The notes beneath the pieces are model-generated. The model searched no databases. It was not told the DNA's origin and saw only the letters and a list, made by a program, of their open reading frames with translations. Of a stretch of DNA of 64,000 bases, positions 23,624 to 29,464 are shown piece by piece. A program made the translations under genes and the position numbers. Each line of letters begins with the position of its first letter. The stretch's first letter is position 1. Origin of the DNA: a virus. The stretch spans positions 1-64,000 of IMG/VR virus record IMGVR_UViG_3300047300_000657. The stretch is one strand, 5' to 3'.

Positions 23624-24103
23624 TTAATCCTTTAATGATTTCCATGGGTTTGGTGGTAGCTTTAGGCTTGATTGCAAGAACCAATCCCACTCTTGATGCT
23701 GTCCAAGTCTATTTGATAAAAATTGAACAAGCCCATGCTCTCTATGTACAATTGCTTGCTCTACTAAAATCTTAATATCTTCAATAATTCTTTGATTAAT
23801 TGGAACAAGATGTTGAGCCATTTCTACTCCACAGTATGTAGCAGGCTTTACATTTCCCAATGTTTGATTAGCAGTAAACTCTTCTAGAGTATACGGAGCT
23901 TCTCCATTTAATCTTCTTAGCCATACAGAAACCTCGTGTACAGCATTTTCTGCATCCTTATAGATTTCTTCATATATAATTCTTGACTGTCTCATTAAGA
24001 CAGACTCTGTATTCCAGTGGAATCCGTGCACTAGGTGTGCGAACACTACTGAGTTTGCTTGAAATTCCTGTAGCGATTTTATTAGTTCTTTTTGTTTTAC
24101 CAT
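23624..24103 (-). CDS. Dps-like ferritin (copy 1)
   Basis: 159 residues from ATG 24101-24103 (MVKQKELIKSLQEFQANSVV), which overlaps the upstream stop. HGFHWN and the following LRRLNGEAPYTL helix carry the Dps/ferritin ferroxidase pattern; HQEWDWFLQSSL closes the bundle. Dps proteins oxidise Fe(II) with peroxide and protect DNA. The ATG at 24121 is a possible alternative. Confidence 0.85.
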   Translation of the reverse strand: MVKQKELIKSLQEFQANSVVFAHLVHGFHWNTESVLMRQSRIIYEEIYKDAENAVHEVSVWLRRLNGEAPYTLEEFTANQTLGNVKPATYCGVEMAQHLVPINQRIIEDIKILVEQAIVHREHGLVQFLSNRLGQHQEWDWFLQSSLKLPPNPWKSLKD

Positions 24104-24906
24104 TGTCTTGTTTCTCCCCATGTCTTTTGTTTTCCAAACATACCGTCTAACCTTCTTTGATTTTGTACAAAACCTCCAGTTACGGCGTGAGCTAATTTAA
24201 ATAGATCTGGTATCAAAAGGTCTCCCTTCTGCCAGCGGTGCACTTTTCTAAATTCAGTATCTTCCCAAACTATTTTAGTTACCTTAACATTTAGCTCTAT
24301 AAATCTTTTATTATCTTCCTCTGATGGCTCTCTACCATCAAATTCAACCAAGCGAATTGGAAGATACCCGCCTAGATGTGTTCGTAAGGTTTTTTCATTT
24401 GTAATCCAATGCCTCTTTACATAATCAAATCTTACATTACTACCATCTTTTTTTATACCTTCAACTCTACATTTATCTAAAAAATCTGTTTCATTTTTAT
24501 CTAAGCGATTATATAGGTCTGCCATATCATAAAAACATGTATTGCCCGTGTCGTAATCGCAATCAAACTGAGTCATATTCCATGTGGAACCGTAAAAAGA
24601 ATCATTCTCGTACTCTACCCACTCTACATGCCAGCCCAACATCCATTCATCTTTTGTTGCAATTGTTGGACCCTTCATGTGCTTGTGATGGTCTTCAATA
24701 TAATCAGATTTTGATGTATCTTTTGAGTTAGGATACCATCCTAGTAGGTCTCCAAAAATATGCATTATATCTTGCTGCATTGCAAAATCAGCATGAACAT
24801 TTCTAAATGCAATTATTTTTTCATCTAAAAATTTTTGCTTATAATAATTAAGATTGTTTTTTATAGAGTCCATTCCTGGGAACTCAATGACCTCAACCTC
24901 TTGCAT
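24097..24906 (-). CDS. TauD/TfdA-type Fe(II)/2OG dioxygenase
   Basis: 269 residues. HxE pair His93/Glu95 in GWHVEWVEYE (family usually HxD or HxE), distal His240 in KLAHAVTGGF, and 2OG Arg251/252. The order KNNLNYYKQKFLDEKIIAFR is typical of the TauD N-terminal region. Members oxidise sulfonates, carnitine or herbicides. The substrate is unknown; it is interesting beside other sulfur genes. Confidence 0.78.
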   Translation of the reverse strand: MQEVEVIEFPGMDSIKNNLNYYKQKFLDEKIIAFRNVHADFAMQQDIMHIFGDLLGWYPNSKDTSKSDYIEDHHKHMKGPTIATKDEWMLGWHVEWVEYENDSFYGSTWNMTQFDCDYDTGNTCFYDMADLYNRLDKNETDFLDKCRVEGIKKDGSNVRFDYVKRHWITNEKTLRTHLGGYLPIRLVEFDGREPSEEDNKRFIELNVKVTKIVWEDTEFRKVHRWQKGDLLIPDLFKLAHAVTGGFVQNQRRLDGMFGKQKTWGETRQW

Positions 24907-24917
24907 ATTTTTCCGTT

Positions 24918-25367
24918 CTAGTTAATTGTTTGTTTTAAGCTTGCTTTAAGCCACCACTGCCATTTTTTATGGCTATCTTGTCTTTCAGAAATAAAATTAG
25001 CTAGGCCTTGATCGCCTGCTTGTGTCGCTGCATTGAATAATGTTGCTAGGTCATTCAGCATTATTTCATTTGCATCAAATAAAATTTTTGTCATTGATAT
25101 TGGAGAATTGCTTGGCGTTAAAGTTTCTCCCATTGTTTGATTTACAATGAGCTGACTTAGTGTATATGGTGCCTGAGCATCAAATTTTCTTATCCATTCA
25201 GATATTGTATCTATTGTTCCATCAATATCTTCATAAATTTTGCCAAAGAAATCGTGGTACTGTGTAAACAATGGGCCCTCTACGTTCCAGTGAAACCCAT
25301 GTGCTGCACTAGCCATCACAAAGGAGTTGGCCTGCCATCTTTTTAGCAAATTTATTAATTGTTCCAT
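24918..25367 (-). CDS. Dps-like ferritin (copy 2)
   Basis: 149 residues. AAHGFHWNVEGPLFTQYHDF carries the ferroxidase residues; RKFDAQAPYTLSQL and SHKKWQWWLKASL match copy 1. Copies differ enough to be old paralogs. TATACT lies exactly six bases before ATG, predicting a leaderless message and so separate control from copy 1. Confidence 0.88.
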   Translation of the reverse strand: MEQLINLLKRWQANSFVMASAAHGFHWNVEGPLFTQYHDFFGKIYEDIDGTIDTISEWIRKFDAQAPYTLSQLIVNQTMGETLTPSNSPISMTKILFDANEIMLNDLATLFNAATQAGDQGLANFISERQDSHKKWQWWLKASLKQTIN

Positions 25368-25391
25368 TATTCTAGTATACCATTTCTATTA

Positions 25392-26054
25392 TTAAACTGT
25401 TGGGTCTGTTGCGGTTGTTTTAGGCATCATGATTCCTTCTGCCCATTGCTTTCTTAAATCTTCTTGAGCCCCATAAACTGATTCCTTTTGAGCCTGTAAA
25501 TCTTCATCATAAACAGAGTCTGCAAAATCAAAAGAGCACATCATTGTATATCTGTCTCCTCCAAGGATTTCGGTGACAGCATGTACGTTATCGATACCTA
25601 CTCCAAAAACTACAACATTACCCTTGGTTGGTTTGATCCCTATCTTATGATCTCTAAAAGTTAATTTGCCACCGTCGTAACTATCATTTAAATATACTAT
25701 GGCAACAAGTTTATTTTCTTTCCATGCATTTGGTGTGCCATCAAGCTCTGCATTATCAGCATGATCTGCTGCCCATGCACCAGGGGTCCATTTATGTGTA
25801 CTTAGCGTTAAAGGTTTTAGTTTTTTCCCAAATACTTCTTCTGCAAGCTTATGCATTTTATCTTTAGCCTGAAAAACTAATTCTTTGCCTTTACCTTCAT
25901 TTGATTTTTGTCCAGAGATTGTGTACATGCCTGGAAAACAGGAGAGCATCCAGTCGTCTAAACTATTCCAATATGATACAAAATTATCACATTCTTCTTG
26001 AGTAAAGACGGCTGAATACTCAACCACATCTTCTTTATGTATTATTTTTTCCAT
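25392..26054 (-). CDS. 2OG-Fe(II) oxygenase, prolyl-4-hydroxylase type
   Basis: 220 residues. His98 and Asp100 in WAADHADNAELDG, His158 in DNVHAVTEI, and Arg168 in GGDRYTMMCSF make the complete metal and 2-oxoglutarate set. GGKLTFRDHKIGIKPTKGNV is the typical beta core. Substrate unknown. TATAAT at six bases before ATG. Confidence 0.9.
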   Translation of the reverse strand: MEKIIHKEDVVEYSAVFTQEECDNFVSYWNSLDDWMLSCFPGMYTISGQKSNEGKGKELVFQAKDKMHKLAEEVFGKKLKPLTLSTHKWTPGAWAADHADNAELDGTPNAWKENKLVAIVYLNDSYDGGKLTFRDHKIGIKPTKGNVVVFGVGIDNVHAVTEILGGDRYTMMCSFDFADSVYDEDLQAQKESVYGAQEDLRKQWAEGIMMPKTTATDPTV

Positions 26055-26069
26055 AATACAATTATACCA

Positions 26070-26582
26070 TCACGCTGATAGGATCTTGGACAAAGCGTTA
26101 ATGGTTGCTGCAATTCTGCCGATATCTCTTAATTGTTCTACAGAATATCCCTCTTCTTTTAGGGTTTCATAATGCGCTTTAACGCAAAAATGGCACTTAC
26201 CAATAATGGATGAGGCTAAACAATAAGCCTCAAATTTTGCTTTTGTTGTTCCACCATGTGAGGCTATGGCATTCATTCTAAGCTGTGCAGGCAAACCTTT
26301 AAGGTTTGCATCGTCTGCCATTTCAAGGAATGGGTACCAAATATTATTTTGAGCCATGATAGATCCAGCTGTCAGGGCTGCATTTTTTTCAACCTCATCT
26401 GATGCATTTGCTACAATAAATGTTAAAAGTTTAGAATTTCCTGTAGCAAATGCTGCTGCAATTGAAAGATAAGTGGCATGCTCTGGATCAATAGTTGATC
26501 TATTAATTACTGCATCAAGATTCAACTTAATATCTTTAGCATATTCTGGAAGAGAATCCTTAAGCTGGTCTACCCATGACAT
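26070..26582 (-). CDS. ahpD: AhpD-like alkylhydroperoxidase
   Basis: 170 residues. C130-x2-C133 in IGKCHFCVKAHYE with His137 and upstream Glu/His acid-base residues is the AhpD active site. In actinobacteria AhpD reduces AhpC through lipoyl carriers. Here it directly follows the phage AhpC (stop of AhpC and start of AhpD share base 26582), so the pair is co-translated. Confidence 0.92.
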   Translation of the reverse strand: MSWVDQLKDSLPEYAKDIKLNLDAVINRSTIDPEHATYLSIAAAFATGNSKLLTFIVANASDEVEKNAALTAGSIMAQNNIWYPFLEMADDANLKGLPAQLRMNAIASHGGTTKAKFEAYCLASSIIGKCHFCVKAHYETLKEEGYSVEQLRDIGRIAATINALSKILSA

Positions 26583-27157
26583 TACAGTGTTTCCCCGCCC
26601 AAAGGTCTATTGCAGGCACAAAGTTCTCCTGTTTGAAGAGCATCTAAAACTCGCAGTGCTTCTTCTGGATTTCGTCCGACATCAAGGTTGTTTACAGTAA
26701 CGTGTTGAATAATATTGTTTGGATCAACAATAAATGTAGCACGTAAAGCAACTCCTTGAGGAGTAATAATACCTAGCTGGTCAGCAAGTCCAGATAAAGA
26801 TCTGTCATTTTCTTCATCGTAAGACCATCCACGAATTTGATCAGCAAACATCCATGAGTTTGTTTTCTTCAAATCTTCGTGTGCGTTTCTCCATGCAATC
26901 TTACAAAATTCATTATCAGTTGATCCTGTTAGAAGTACTGCATCTCTGTCTTCAAAATCTTTTGCAAGCTTATCGTACGCAACAATTTCTGTTGGGCATA
27001 CAAATGTAAAGTCCTTTGGATAGTAAACAATTACTTTCCACTTTCCAGGGAATGAGTTTTCTGTTAATGTTTCAAAAACATCATCAGAAGAATCAAGTCT
27101 CCCTGGTTTTACTCCGACGACAGCAAAGCCGTCAATCTTATCTCCGATTGTCTTCAT
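26582..27157 (-). CDS. ahpC: AhpC-type peroxiredoxin
   Basis: 191 residues. Peroxidatic Cys54 in YPKDFTFVCPTE, Arg near residue 126, and a C-terminal resolving Cys180/182 in LCACNRPLGG. Typical 2-Cys peroxiredoxin, reduces peroxides. GGAGAA precedes ATG. The unit starts with a tRNA-Glu and a strong promoter (27279-27307). Confidence 0.93.
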   Translation of the reverse strand: MKTIGDKIDGFAVVGVKPGRLDSSDDVFETLTENSFPGKWKVIVYYPKDFTFVCPTEIVAYDKLAKDFEDRDAVLLTGSTDNEFCKIAWRNAHEDLKKTNSWMFADQIRGWSYDEENDRSLSGLADQLGIITPQGVALRATFIVDPNNIIQHVTVNNLDVGRNPEEALRVLDALQTGELCACNRPLGGETL

Positions 27158-27307: not shown

Positions 27308-27384
27308 TGGTGCTCCATGTAAGACTTGAACTTACAACATCCAGATTCTAAGTCTGGCGCCTCTACCAATTGGACTAATGGAGC
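27308..27384 (-). tRNA. tRNA-Leu (UAG anticodon), CCA encoded, short variable arm
   Basis: Acceptor GCTCCAT/ATGGAGC is perfect; anticodon stem CCAGA/TCTGG with loop CTTAGAA; 3' CCA is in the DNA. The variable region is only five bases, unlike normal long-arm leucine tRNAs, so charging specificity is uncertain. Confidence 0.85.
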
Positions 27385-27387
27385 CTT

Positions 27388-27460
27388 GCTCTTCCCCCTG
27401 GATTCGAACCAAGATTGCCTGAGCCAAAATCAGGAGTCCTACCGTTGGACGAAGGAAGAA
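27388..27460 (-). tRNA. tRNA-Gln (UUG anticodon)
   Basis: Anticodon stem CCTGA/TCAGG with loop TTTTGGC; acceptor TTCTTCC/GGAAGAG; TpsiC loop TTCGAAT. Confidence 0.88.
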
Positions 27461-27551
27461 TGGCGGAAGGTGGGAGAGTCGAACTCCCAAGGGCTTTAAC
27501 ACCTCGACTGTTTTCAAGACAGCTGCCGTCGCCAATCGGACTTGACCTTCC
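27461..27551 (-). tRNA. tRNA-Ser (UGA anticodon), CCA encoded
   Basis: 91-base form with a long variable arm. Anticodon stem CTGT/ACAG, loop CTTGAAA; acceptor GGAAGGT/ACCTTCC; 3' end GCCA. Confidence 0.92.
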
Positions 27552-27555
27552 TTAG

Positions 27556-27635
27556 TGCCACACCTTGGGATCGAACCAAGCATGTCTTAGACGACGGATT
27601 TACAGTCCGCTGCCCCACCCTGGGGCTTGTGTGAC
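27556..27635 (-). tRNA. tRNA-Tyr (GUA anticodon)
   Basis: Anticodon stem CGGA/TCCG, loop CTGTAAA, extra-long variable arm as in bacterial tyrosine tRNAs; acceptor GTCACAC/GTGTGGC. Confidence 0.9.
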
Positions 27636-27637
27636 GG

Positions 27638-27708
27638 GGTGACCTGTGGGAATTGAACCCACACGTGCTGGACCACAACCAGCCGCTCTACCATTGAGCT
27701 AAGGCCAC
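27638..27708 (-). tRNA. tRNA-His (GUG anticodon)
   Basis: Anticodon stem GCTGG/CCAGC, loop TTGTGGT; acceptor GTGGCCT/AGGTCAC. Confidence 0.9.
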
Positions 27709-27710
27709 GG

Positions 27711-27783
27711 TGGAAACAGTAGGAATCGAACCTACGACATTCTGTGTGTAAGACAGACGCTCTACTCTCTGAGCTATGCTTCC
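27711..27783 (-). tRNA. tRNA-Val (UAC anticodon)
   Basis: Anticodon stem TCTGT/ACAGA, loop CTTACAC; acceptor GGAAGCA/TGTTTCC; discriminator A. Confidence 0.9.
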
Positions 27784-27787
27784 TGAG

Positions 27788-27860
27788 TCTGATTAGAAGG
27801 ACTTGAACCTTCGGCCTCCTGCTCCCAAAGCAGGCGTTCTACCAACTGAACTATAACCAG
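27788..27860 (-). tRNA. tRNA-Pro (UGG anticodon)
   Basis: Anticodon stem CCTGC/GCAGG, loop TTTGGGA; acceptor CTGGTTA/TAATCAG. Confidence 0.9.
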
Positions 27861-27861
27861 G

Positions 27862-27933
27862 CGAAGACGGTAGGAATCGAACCCACTCCAGGAGGTTTGG
27901 AAGCTCCTGTGCTAACCATTACACTACGTCGAC
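27862..27933 (-). tRNA. tRNA, probably Trp (CCA anticodon), imperfect
   Basis: D-arm GTGT/GCAC and T-arm are good, but the acceptor (GTCGACG/CGTCTTC) has two mismatches and the anticodon stem (GGAGC/CCTCC, loop TTCCAAA) has a C-C pair. Discriminator G and loop position favour Trp; a shifted fold would read Gly UCC, but a clear Gly tRNA exists at 28857-28927. Confidence 0.6.
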
Positions 27934-27934
27934 G

Positions 27935-28007
27935 AGCCCAATATCAGATTCGAACTGATGACCCTCCGCTTACAAGGCGGATGCTCTAGCCACTGAGCTA
28001 ATCGGGC
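27935..28007 (-). tRNA. tRNA-Thr (UGU anticodon)
   Basis: Anticodon stem CCGC/GCGG, loop CTTGTAA; acceptor GCCCGAT/ATTGGGC. Confidence 0.9.
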
Positions 28008-28024
28008 GGTGATCTTACGATCAG

Positions 28025-28096
28025 TGGGAAATCTAGGAATCGAACCTAGTACTTATGTTCTTCAGACATACGCTTTACCTTTTAAGCTAATATCCC
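28025..28096 (-). tRNA. tRNA-Phe (GAA anticodon)
   Basis: Anticodon stem TATGT/ACATA, loop CTGAAGA; acceptor GGGATAT/ATTTCCC; discriminator A. Confidence 0.9.
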
Positions 28097-28097
28097 G

Positions 28098-28171
28098 TAG
28101 AGATAAATGGATTTGAACCATTGACCTTCTGTGTATCAGACAGATGCTCTAACCAACTGAGCTATACCTCT
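28098..28171 (-). tRNA. tRNA-Ile (GAU anticodon)
   Basis: Anticodon stem TCTGT/ACAGA, loop CTGATAC; acceptor AGAGGTA/TATCTCT; discriminator A. Confidence 0.9.
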
Positions 28172-28172
28172 G

Positions 28173-28246
28173 CACCCAAAACAGGATTCGAACCTGTGAC
28201 CCTCTCGTTCGTAGCGAGATGCTCTATTCCGCTGAGCTACATGGGT
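28173..28246 (-). tRNA. tRNA-Arg (ACG anticodon)
   Basis: Anticodon stem CTCG/CGAG, loop CTACGAA; acceptor ACCCATG/TTTGGGT. A34 would need the host TadA deaminase to form inosine. Confidence 0.9.
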
Positions 28247-28254
28247 ATAAACAA

Positions 28255-28287
28255 AAATCGGGCTAAATTTTTCAATTTGCCCGATTT
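28255..28287 (-). terminator. Strong terminator inside the tRNA array
   Basis: Nine-bp stem AAATCGGGC/GCCCGATTT with inner AAATT pairing, followed on the minus strand by TTTTTGTTTA. It ends the short unit that starts at promoter 28411-28439. Confidence 0.75.
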
Positions 28288-28310
28288 GGTTTTATATATA
28301 TAAAACTATT

Positions 28311-28403
28311 TCAGACAACACTTCCAATAAACCAGACTGTTGACGGTAGCACAAAATGCCCACGTTGAGATGTGGTCTGATATGATCGAAGTGTTGCTTT
28401 CAT
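28311..28403 (-). CDS. Candidate leaderless microprotein or structured RNA, 30 residues
   Basis: ATG 28401-28403 lies seven bases after TAGTAT of a strong promoter and TGA is at 28311-28313. The product would be MKATLRSYQTTSQRGHFVLP followed by STVWFIGSVV. The region also folds: CAACACTTC (28388-28397 side) pairs with GAAGTGTTG (28317-28326 side). With its own promoter and terminator between tRNA genes it is an independent unit, but protein and RNA readings cannot be separated by eye. Confidence 0.45.
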   Translation of the reverse strand: MKATLRSYQTTSQRGHFVLPSTVWFIGSVV

Positions 28404-28410
28404 AGTGTAT

Positions 28411-28439
28411 ATACTACCATTTCTTTTTTATATGTGCAA
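28411..28439 (-). promoter_or_regulatory. Promoter of the micro-gene inside the tRNA array
   Basis: TTGCAC (28434-28439), exactly 17 bases, TAGTAT (28411-28416), seven bases, ATG. Good match for the housekeeping consensus. Confidence 0.65.
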
Positions 28440-28440
28440 G

Positions 28441-28524
28441 CGGAAGATACAGGATTCGAACCTGTGCTCCTTTCGGATTGCCTCTTTAGCAAAGAGGTGA
28501 GTTAGGCCACTGCTCTAATCTTCC
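28441..28524 (-). tRNA. tRNA-Ser (GCU anticodon)
   Basis: Long variable arm; anticodon stem CCTCT/AGAGG, loop TTGCTAA; acceptor GGAAGAT/ATCTTCC; discriminator G. Confidence 0.92.
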
Positions 28525-28526
28525 GA

Positions 28527-28599
28527 AGCGGAGGTGGGATTTGAACCCACGACCTAAAGCTTATGAGGCTTCCGAGCTAACCAAACTGCTCTACTCCGC
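28527..28599 (-). tRNA. tRNA with CAU anticodon (Met or Ile2)
   Basis: Anticodon stem GAAGC/GCTTT, loop CTCATAA; acceptor GCGGAGT/CCTCCGC. Lacks the initiator three-GC anticodon stem; elongator Met or lysidine-modified Ile2 cannot be told apart here. Confidence 0.85.
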
Positions 28600-28601
28600 A
28601 G

Positions 28602-28675
28602 CGATCCATATCGGACTTGAACCGACGGCCTCTACCGTGACAGGGTAGCGCTCTAACCAACTGAGCTAATGGACC
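28602..28675 (-). tRNA. tRNA-Asp (GUC anticodon)
   Basis: Anticodon stem CTACC/GGTAG, loop CTGTCAC; acceptor GGTCCAT/ATGGATC; discriminator G. Confidence 0.92.
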
Positions 28676-28856
28676 ATGTGTGAGCAATGTATTGACTAGT
28701 ACATTCTCACCGACTCTTTTCTTCAACACCTGCGAGTAACAGCAACTGTGTGTCATTGTCATACACTAAAGGCAGAGTTAATGCCGTCACCAATTCGGGG
28801 CTGGTCCTACATATCTTATTCACGATTGATATAACCGAGTGTTAGTCACTACACTG

Positions 28857-28927
28857 AGCGAATAGTCAGAATCGAACTGACGCCACCTACTTGGAAGGAA
28901 GGAGCACTACCATTATGCAATATTCGC
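28857..28927 (-). tRNA. tRNA-Gly (UCC anticodon)
   Basis: Anticodon stem CCTTC/GTAGG, loop CTTCCAA; acceptor GCGAATA/TATTCGC; discriminator T, as expected for glycine. The 181 bases to the next tRNA hold no other recognisable gene. Confidence 0.88.
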
Positions 28928-29179: not shown

Positions 29180-29464
29180 CTATTCTTCTAATTCTATCAA
29201 GCCTAATTCTTTAGCTACTCTTTTACCTTCTTCGCTTAATTCCATGTGTGCTTCTAAGTTTTCATCATATTCGATATCAAGTAAACCTTTTTCAAATAAA
29301 TCAACGAGTGTTGCATCTACAAAGCTTGTGTGCGCTTCCCACAACTCTGGTGCAATTTCTTGAGCAATTGGATCTATTGTAAATATAAATTCGCCACTTT
29401 CATCTACGCCAGAAACTTTAATGACACCCATGTCGATGTACATATTTAGAAGCTCGTCGTCCAT
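29180..29464 (-). CDS. Hypothetical acidic 94-residue protein, possible winged helix
   Basis: MDDELLNMYIDMGVIKVSGV, then GEFIFTIDPIAQEIAPELWE and MELSEEGKRVAKELGLIELE. The LSEEGKRVAKELG stretch resembles a winged-helix-type third helix, but no strong match is claimed. AGGAGGAATAA lies before ATG. Located between tRNA-Arg and a CAU tRNA, so transcribed with them. Confidence 0.75.
   Translation of the reverse strand: MDDELLNMYIDMGVIKVSGVDESGEFIFTIDPIAQEIAPELWEAHTSFVDATLVDLFEKGLLDIEYDENLEAHMELSEEGKRVAKELGLIELEE

Follow-up and report, generated by a model that had tools for sequence, protein, structure and literature searches.

The gap between two tRNA genes in the tRNA array of a freshwater actinobacterial phage carries an element that we read, with a probability of roughly 0.84, as a leader-peptide transcription attenuator gauging the availability of the tRNAs under its control. 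The grounds for this reading, drawn from sequence comparison, are coding selection on a short leader ORF, covariation in a stem, a correspondence between leader codons and downstream tRNAs, conserved alternative pairings and synteny. The transcript start, translation, ribosome stalling and antitermination are steps that we infer from the attenuator model.

Layout of the element, its surroundings and its homologs

The window, i.e., the whole stretch of 64,000 nucleotides analysed here, is part of a 67.9-kb IMG/VR record, and the kin of the phage are Streptomyces phages of Loccivirinae, its TerL being at most 62% identical to that of Gilson. The array in the window comprises 21 tRNAs, and the element fills a 193-nt gap in it on the minus strand. 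Its parts and neighbours are as follows.

28440-28524, tRNA-Ser(gct), upstream neighbour (ARAGORN)
28411-28439 (-), leader promoter TTGCAC-17-TAGTAT (from sequence; layout common to L190 and L195)
28311-28403 (-), putative leaderless leader ORF of 30 codons, MKATLRSYQTTSQRGHFVLPSTVWFIGSVV, stop codon TGA (substitution pattern against L190 and L195)
28326-28394 (-), candidate sensor segment, codons 4-26 (codon content against the 12 downstream tRNAs)
28388-28397 (-), region 1, GCAACACUUC, codons 3-6, pairing with region 2 in a 10-bp stem
28311-28324 (-), region 2, GAAGUGUUGUCUGA, last part of the ORF with its stop codon, pairing with region 1 or, via UUGUCUGA, with region 3
28289-28306 (-), A-U hairpin GUUUUAU...AUAAAAC inside the antiterminator helix, 7 bp, invariant in the three homologs
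28277-28284 (-), region 3, UCGGGCAA, 5' arm of the terminator, pairing with region 2 or region 4
28251-28287 (-), intrinsic terminator (regions 3:4) with T-tract ahead of tRNA-Arg(acg), -15.3 kcal/mol, nearly invariant
28172-28246, tRNA-Arg(acg), downstream neighbour (ARAGORN)
27308-28246 (-), operon of 12 tRNAs behind the element (ARAGORN); same block in L190, block without Tyr and Leu in L195
27279-27307 (-), distinct promoter-like site in front of tRNA-Glu, TTGACA-17-TAAAAT, 11/12 consensus matches

An earlier note on this DNA had placed a promoter, an ATG, a 30-codon frame, an outer stem and a terminator in the gap, and all of them were found there on the minus strand. The promoter, which the note called clean, stands by its position, spacing and conserved layout, but not by its strength: the TTGCAC box (28439-28434) and, after a 17-nt spacer, the TAGTAT box (28416-28411) give a weak 7/12 matches to the consensus, and a generic promoter scan did not report them. 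The promoters at the same place in the homologs read TTGCAT-17-TATACT (L190) and TTGCAC-17-TATGAT (L195). Since the layout TTGCAY-17-TANNNT is thus kept in all three, with other bases variable, we regard the promoter as supported despite its weak consensus. Because the -10 box ends 7 nt before the ATG at 28403, the transcript is predicted to start at or next to the ATG; the TANNNT box ends 6-7 nt 5' of the ATG in all three homologs, a distance that fits a leaderless start. Leaderless initiation is common in mycobacteria (PMC4633059).

The terminator (AAATCGGGCAAATTGAAAAATTTAGCCCGATTTTT, 28287-28251) has the same predicted stability in all three homologs. The generic terminator scan did not call it, probably on account of its bulge. 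The 193-nt strand as a whole folds far better than its shuffles (z = -5.3, with 0/200 as good), and the 89-nt core has z = -3.55.

The comparison rests on three sequences counting the window, all of them metagenomic: L190 was obtained from a pattern scan and L195 from a scan that used part of tRNA-Arg(acg). In each, the element lies directly before Arg(acg)-Ile-Phe-Thr-Trp-Pro-Val-His, and the tRNA preceding it differs (Ser in the window, Glu in L190, Tyr in L195). The block behind it comprises 12 tRNAs in the window and L190 and 10 in L195; the order in the window is Arg(acg), Ile(gat), Phe(gaa), Thr(tgt), Trp(cca), Pro(tgg), Val(tac), His(gtg), Tyr(gta), Ser(tga), Gln(ttg) and Leu(tag). We found no match to the element by blastn in 187 related loci, none in annotated phages by distant blastn and tblastn, and no fourth member with a covariance model over 90 whole records and 44 sources. 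An automatic search of all the loci covered for unrelated sets of leader ORF, terminator and tRNA operon gave no convincing case beyond these three. Rfam returned only tRNA matches in the window at the gathering score, and neither a family nor a T-box in 28200-28900 up to E = 10. Several candidates were rejected: the pattern matches L189 and L191 and five genome-contig matches to the terminator sequence are due to chance, the latter having the terminator alone with no tRNAs nearby, and a 29-aa ORF in the tRNA array of Streptomyces phage Gilson is unrelated.

Strong promoter-like sites on the minus strand (29591-29563, TTGACA-17-TATACT; 29200-29172, TTGATA-17-TATACT; and the site before tRNA-Glu, 27307-27279) seem to split the tRNA array of the window into several transcription units. 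Other parts of the minus strand are also of note. A 180-nt gap between tRNA-Gly and tRNA-Asp (28676-28855) has no gene call, no Rfam match and a folding z of 0.03, and a 94-aa acidic protein without Pfam match, encoded between tRNA-Met and tRNA-Arg (29180-29464), is kept at the same place in many related phages. A block of oxidative-stress type (23624-27157) encodes an AhpC-like peroxiredoxin, an AhpD-like protein of the carboxymuconolactone-decarboxylase family and a protein of ferritin/Dps-like type; a further, similar Dps-like ORF lies at 23624-24121. AhpC-like genes are present in many viral contigs.

Leader codons and the tRNAs behind them

The ORF of the window differs from that of L190 by eight substitutions, seven at third positions and six synonymous (p = 0.0026 for the third-position bias), and its sole length difference from that of L195 is one whole codon. 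This third-position bias indicates that the leader frame is coding, and we consider the ORF to be under coding selection as judged from its substitutions. Together with the position of the TANNNT box, the bias supports the leaderless translated frame that the earlier note had considered possible.

The leader in the window holds codons for all 12 downstream tRNAs and is devoid of Asp, Glu, Asn, Cys and AGR-Arg codons; by codon family, 12/12 of the downstream tRNAs are represented versus 4/11 of the others (Fisher p = 0.0013). The likely reason for the missing Glu codons is that tRNA-Glu has its own promoter-like site, at which the controlled unit probably ends. The tRNA-Glu gene of L190 is located upstream of the element. 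Cys codons are absent from all three leaders. Within codons 4-26, which come before the stretch of the ORF that engages in pairing, 22/23 are read by downstream tRNAs versus a background of 45% in phage genes (binomial p = 3.9e-7, in a composition test framed after the peptide was seen), and none of 13,457 genic windows equalled this match. Gly codons in the sensor are without a downstream tRNA.

L195, a later check found once the idea existed, constitutes a natural test of codon-tRNA tracking at the sequence level. The Tyr(gta) and Leu(tag) genes lie upstream of the element in this locus, and both Tyr and CUN codons are missing from its leader (MNATSRSLQTTTRGFIVVPSQVWHIGDVA), the single Leu codon being UUA. 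Relative to the window, the Tyr and CTN families are the only ones lost and the ten remaining families are all kept, so that the downstream families are represented at 12/12 in the window, 12/12 in L190 and 10/10 in L195, where 20/22 sensor codons are read by downstream tRNAs. Residues have meanwhile exchanged sites (H16F with F25H; Q13T with T22Q), and 7/8 of the replacement codons belong to the new tRNA set (p about 0.0007, by simulation). As the codon set is kept and the peptide sequence is not, the peptide itself is probably not the product. The change of CAA to CAG in L190, which has tRNA-Gln(ctg), was not counted as an extra match, as L195 has the same tRNA and keeps CAA.

Alternative pairings and the predicted switch

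The outer stem (1:2) of the window, GCAACACTTC/GAAGTGTTGT, is 10 bp long, and its GCAACACUUC/GAAGUGUUGU corresponds to GCAACAUC/GAUGUUGC in L195, in which two pairs are changed on both sides (C-G to U-A and U-A to C-G), one G-U has become G-C and one pair is lost. This covariation, which supports the outer stem of the earlier note as conserved, comes from one divergent sequence, and 61/500 shuffles do as well. The inner helices are not kept; a change of GTC to GTG in L190 breaks an inner pair. Both codon conservation and stem conservation, the absence of which the earlier note had named as grounds against its idea, are present in the homologs.

The antiterminator (2:3) is an 8-bp helix, UUGUCUGA/UCGGGCAA in the window and L190 and UUGCUUGA/UCGGGCAA in L195. 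It uses the end of the ORF with the stop codon and the 5' arm of the terminator, and encloses the A-U hairpin, of which the loop alone differs among the three homologs. As 2:3 and 3:4 share UCGGGCAA, the two are mutually exclusive in silico. An 8-bp match of this kind occurs in 2-3% of shuffles, and the 2:3 pairing by itself is modest evidence.

We folded the RNA with a ribosome placed at successive codons. The antiterminator was predicted with the ribosome at codons 5-23, and its probability was 0 in all three homologs with the ribosome at codons 29-31 (stop). For stalls at about codons 14-20, the model allows stem 1:2 to close again around the stalled ribosome (in the window, with P = 0.68-0.73), so that 2:3 is reduced chiefly to its lower half. 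The terminator wins at equilibrium in every state, with P(T) of 0.88-0.95; being the more stable structure, it demands that the switch be kinetic.

If the attenuator model is correct, RNA polymerase would begin at the ATG or right beside it, and a ribosome would enter the leaderless ORF. With all twelve tRNAs available, the ribosome would reach the UGA and cover region 2, whereupon 3:4 would pair and transcription would stop. If any one of the tRNAs were scarce, the ribosome would stall in codons 4-26 and leave region 2 free, and 2:3 would pre-empt the terminator and let the polymerase enter the twelve tRNA genes. With no ribosome on the leader, stem 1:2 would tip the outcome towards termination, which is also favoured in trp-type attenuators in that state. 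The trigger could plausibly be the loss of host tRNAs in infection, for instance through host anticodon nucleases. It is attractive to regard the element as a viral tRNA-depletion alarm, with a codon for each tRNA of the operon, in which the loss of any of the twelve switches on the whole set and the leader is re-edited with each gain or loss of a tRNA gene by the operon; we hold this wider view to be somewhat favoured.

Rival readings and relation to known systems

The earlier note took the locus for an independent micro-gene that could yield a lone peptide, a small RNA or both, and it is here that our reading departs from it: the codons follow the set of tRNA genes downstream and change sites between homologs, and the RNA has mutually exclusive pairings with the terminator of the tRNA operon, which speaks for a cis-acting attenuator. 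A stand-alone phage microprotein of 30 residues, made from its own leaderless mRNA that the terminator merely ends while the tRNAs are transcribed from elsewhere, would account for a promoter, a conserved coding frame and a terminator of its own, and mycobacteria commonly have short leaderless proteins (PMC4633059). We nevertheless consider it unlikely, as (i) residues exchange sites between homologs (H16/F25 and Q13/T22) while the codon set is kept, (ii) codon content follows the downstream tRNAs, (iii) the end of the ORF pairs with a terminator arm, and (iv) tblastn in phages gave no protein similarity.

The strong fold (z = -5.3) and the compensatory changes in the stem would also suit a structured small RNA, possibly processed from the tRNA transcript, whose stem is the functional unit and whose reading frame is incidental. 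Changes biased to third positions, inner helices that are not conserved (GTC to GTG in L190) and the lack of an Rfam family make this the least credible of the rivals, with very little probability. Alternatively, the promoter and a constitutive, partial terminator may simply set the ratio of tRNA expression, the codon match being a by-product of codon adaptation. That the array seems to be split into units with promoter-like sites of their own is in line with such an arrangement, but phage genes overall have 45% of these codons against 22/23 in the leader, the changes in L195 are specific to the two relocated tRNAs, and the coding leader and the antiterminator would be left unexplained. We therefore rate this alternative as very unlikely.

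As modelled, the mechanism of the element belongs with the leader-peptide attenuators, such as that of ilvB1 of Mycobacterium tuberculosis, which follows the same 1:2 / 2:3 / 3:4 logic (PMC13236596). Attenuators of the trp/ilv type, ilvB1 included, share with the element, as we model it, a short translated leader with control codons, an antiterminator and an intrinsic terminator that exclude each other, and masking of the antiterminator by a ribosome at the stop codon. Unlike them, the element is predicted to be leaderless, resides in a phage, draws on twelve codon families where they use a run of one or a few, and would control tRNA genes in place of biosynthetic or synthetase genes. The leaderless polycysteine short ORFs of mycobacteria (Canestrari et al. 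2020, as cited in PMC9031893 and PMC13236596) share the actinobacterial setting, are leaderless as the element is predicted to be and, according to those citations, couple ribosome speed, dependent on one aminoacyl-tRNA, to control of the operon behind. As described there, they rely on consecutive Cys codons and regulate how the next gene is translated, whereas the element has mixed codons, a terminator and tRNAs as the next genes. T-box leaders also sense the state of tRNA and control a terminator, but they bind uncharged tRNA directly, without translation, and the element has no T-box match.

Phage tRNAs are thought to protect against cleavage of host tRNAs (PMC10264068; PMC11555353). The point in common with our element is the plausible trigger, host tRNA loss, but these studies concern the tRNAs themselves and not a sensor of their transcription. 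We found neither leader-peptide control nor a sensor for transcription of phage tRNA genes in the open-access papers retrieved, and no switch of this type for tRNA genes in annotated phages, Rfam or the retrieved literature. What would be new here is tRNA genes as the target, the sensing of multiple tRNAs and the evolutionary tracking of a tRNA set.

Other RNA elements were noticed in the tRNA arrays of related phages. manA RNA (RF01745) lies inside the arrays of L195 (4965-5148), L190 (6505-6682) and L091 (4466-4643), scoring 62.1 bits in L195 and just below threshold in L190 and L091; next in order come a terminator and a tRNA. RNA switches of several kinds may control the tRNA units of these phages. 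Three more inter-tRNA sequence families, RNA-like in appearance and without Rfam match, are common to related phages.

L083 1180-1352, L187 4094-4261, L013 15546-15697, inter-tRNA family
L187 4337-4460, L091 5259-5387, L013 15971-16098, inter-tRNA family
L187 4533-4696, L013 16171-16330, inter-tRNA family

Interspersed with the tRNA genes of Streptomyces phage TunaTartare (L208, 8259-25171) are genes for an RNA ligase, a polynucleotide kinase and an RNA-binding protein of Ro-like type, which may hint at tRNA repair in cultured relatives. A Ro/Y RNA explanation of the element was dropped, as the partial record of the window phage has no TROVE protein.

Why and when phages use tRNA genes has been debated for 50 years (PMC10264068). 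If our reading is true, the twelve tRNAs would be made on demand and the leader codons would list that demand, providing a built-in readout. Leader-peptide attenuation would then extend from one amino acid to a whole tRNA set, and the element would allow the hypothesis that phage tRNAs serve to counter tRNA depletion to be tested directly.
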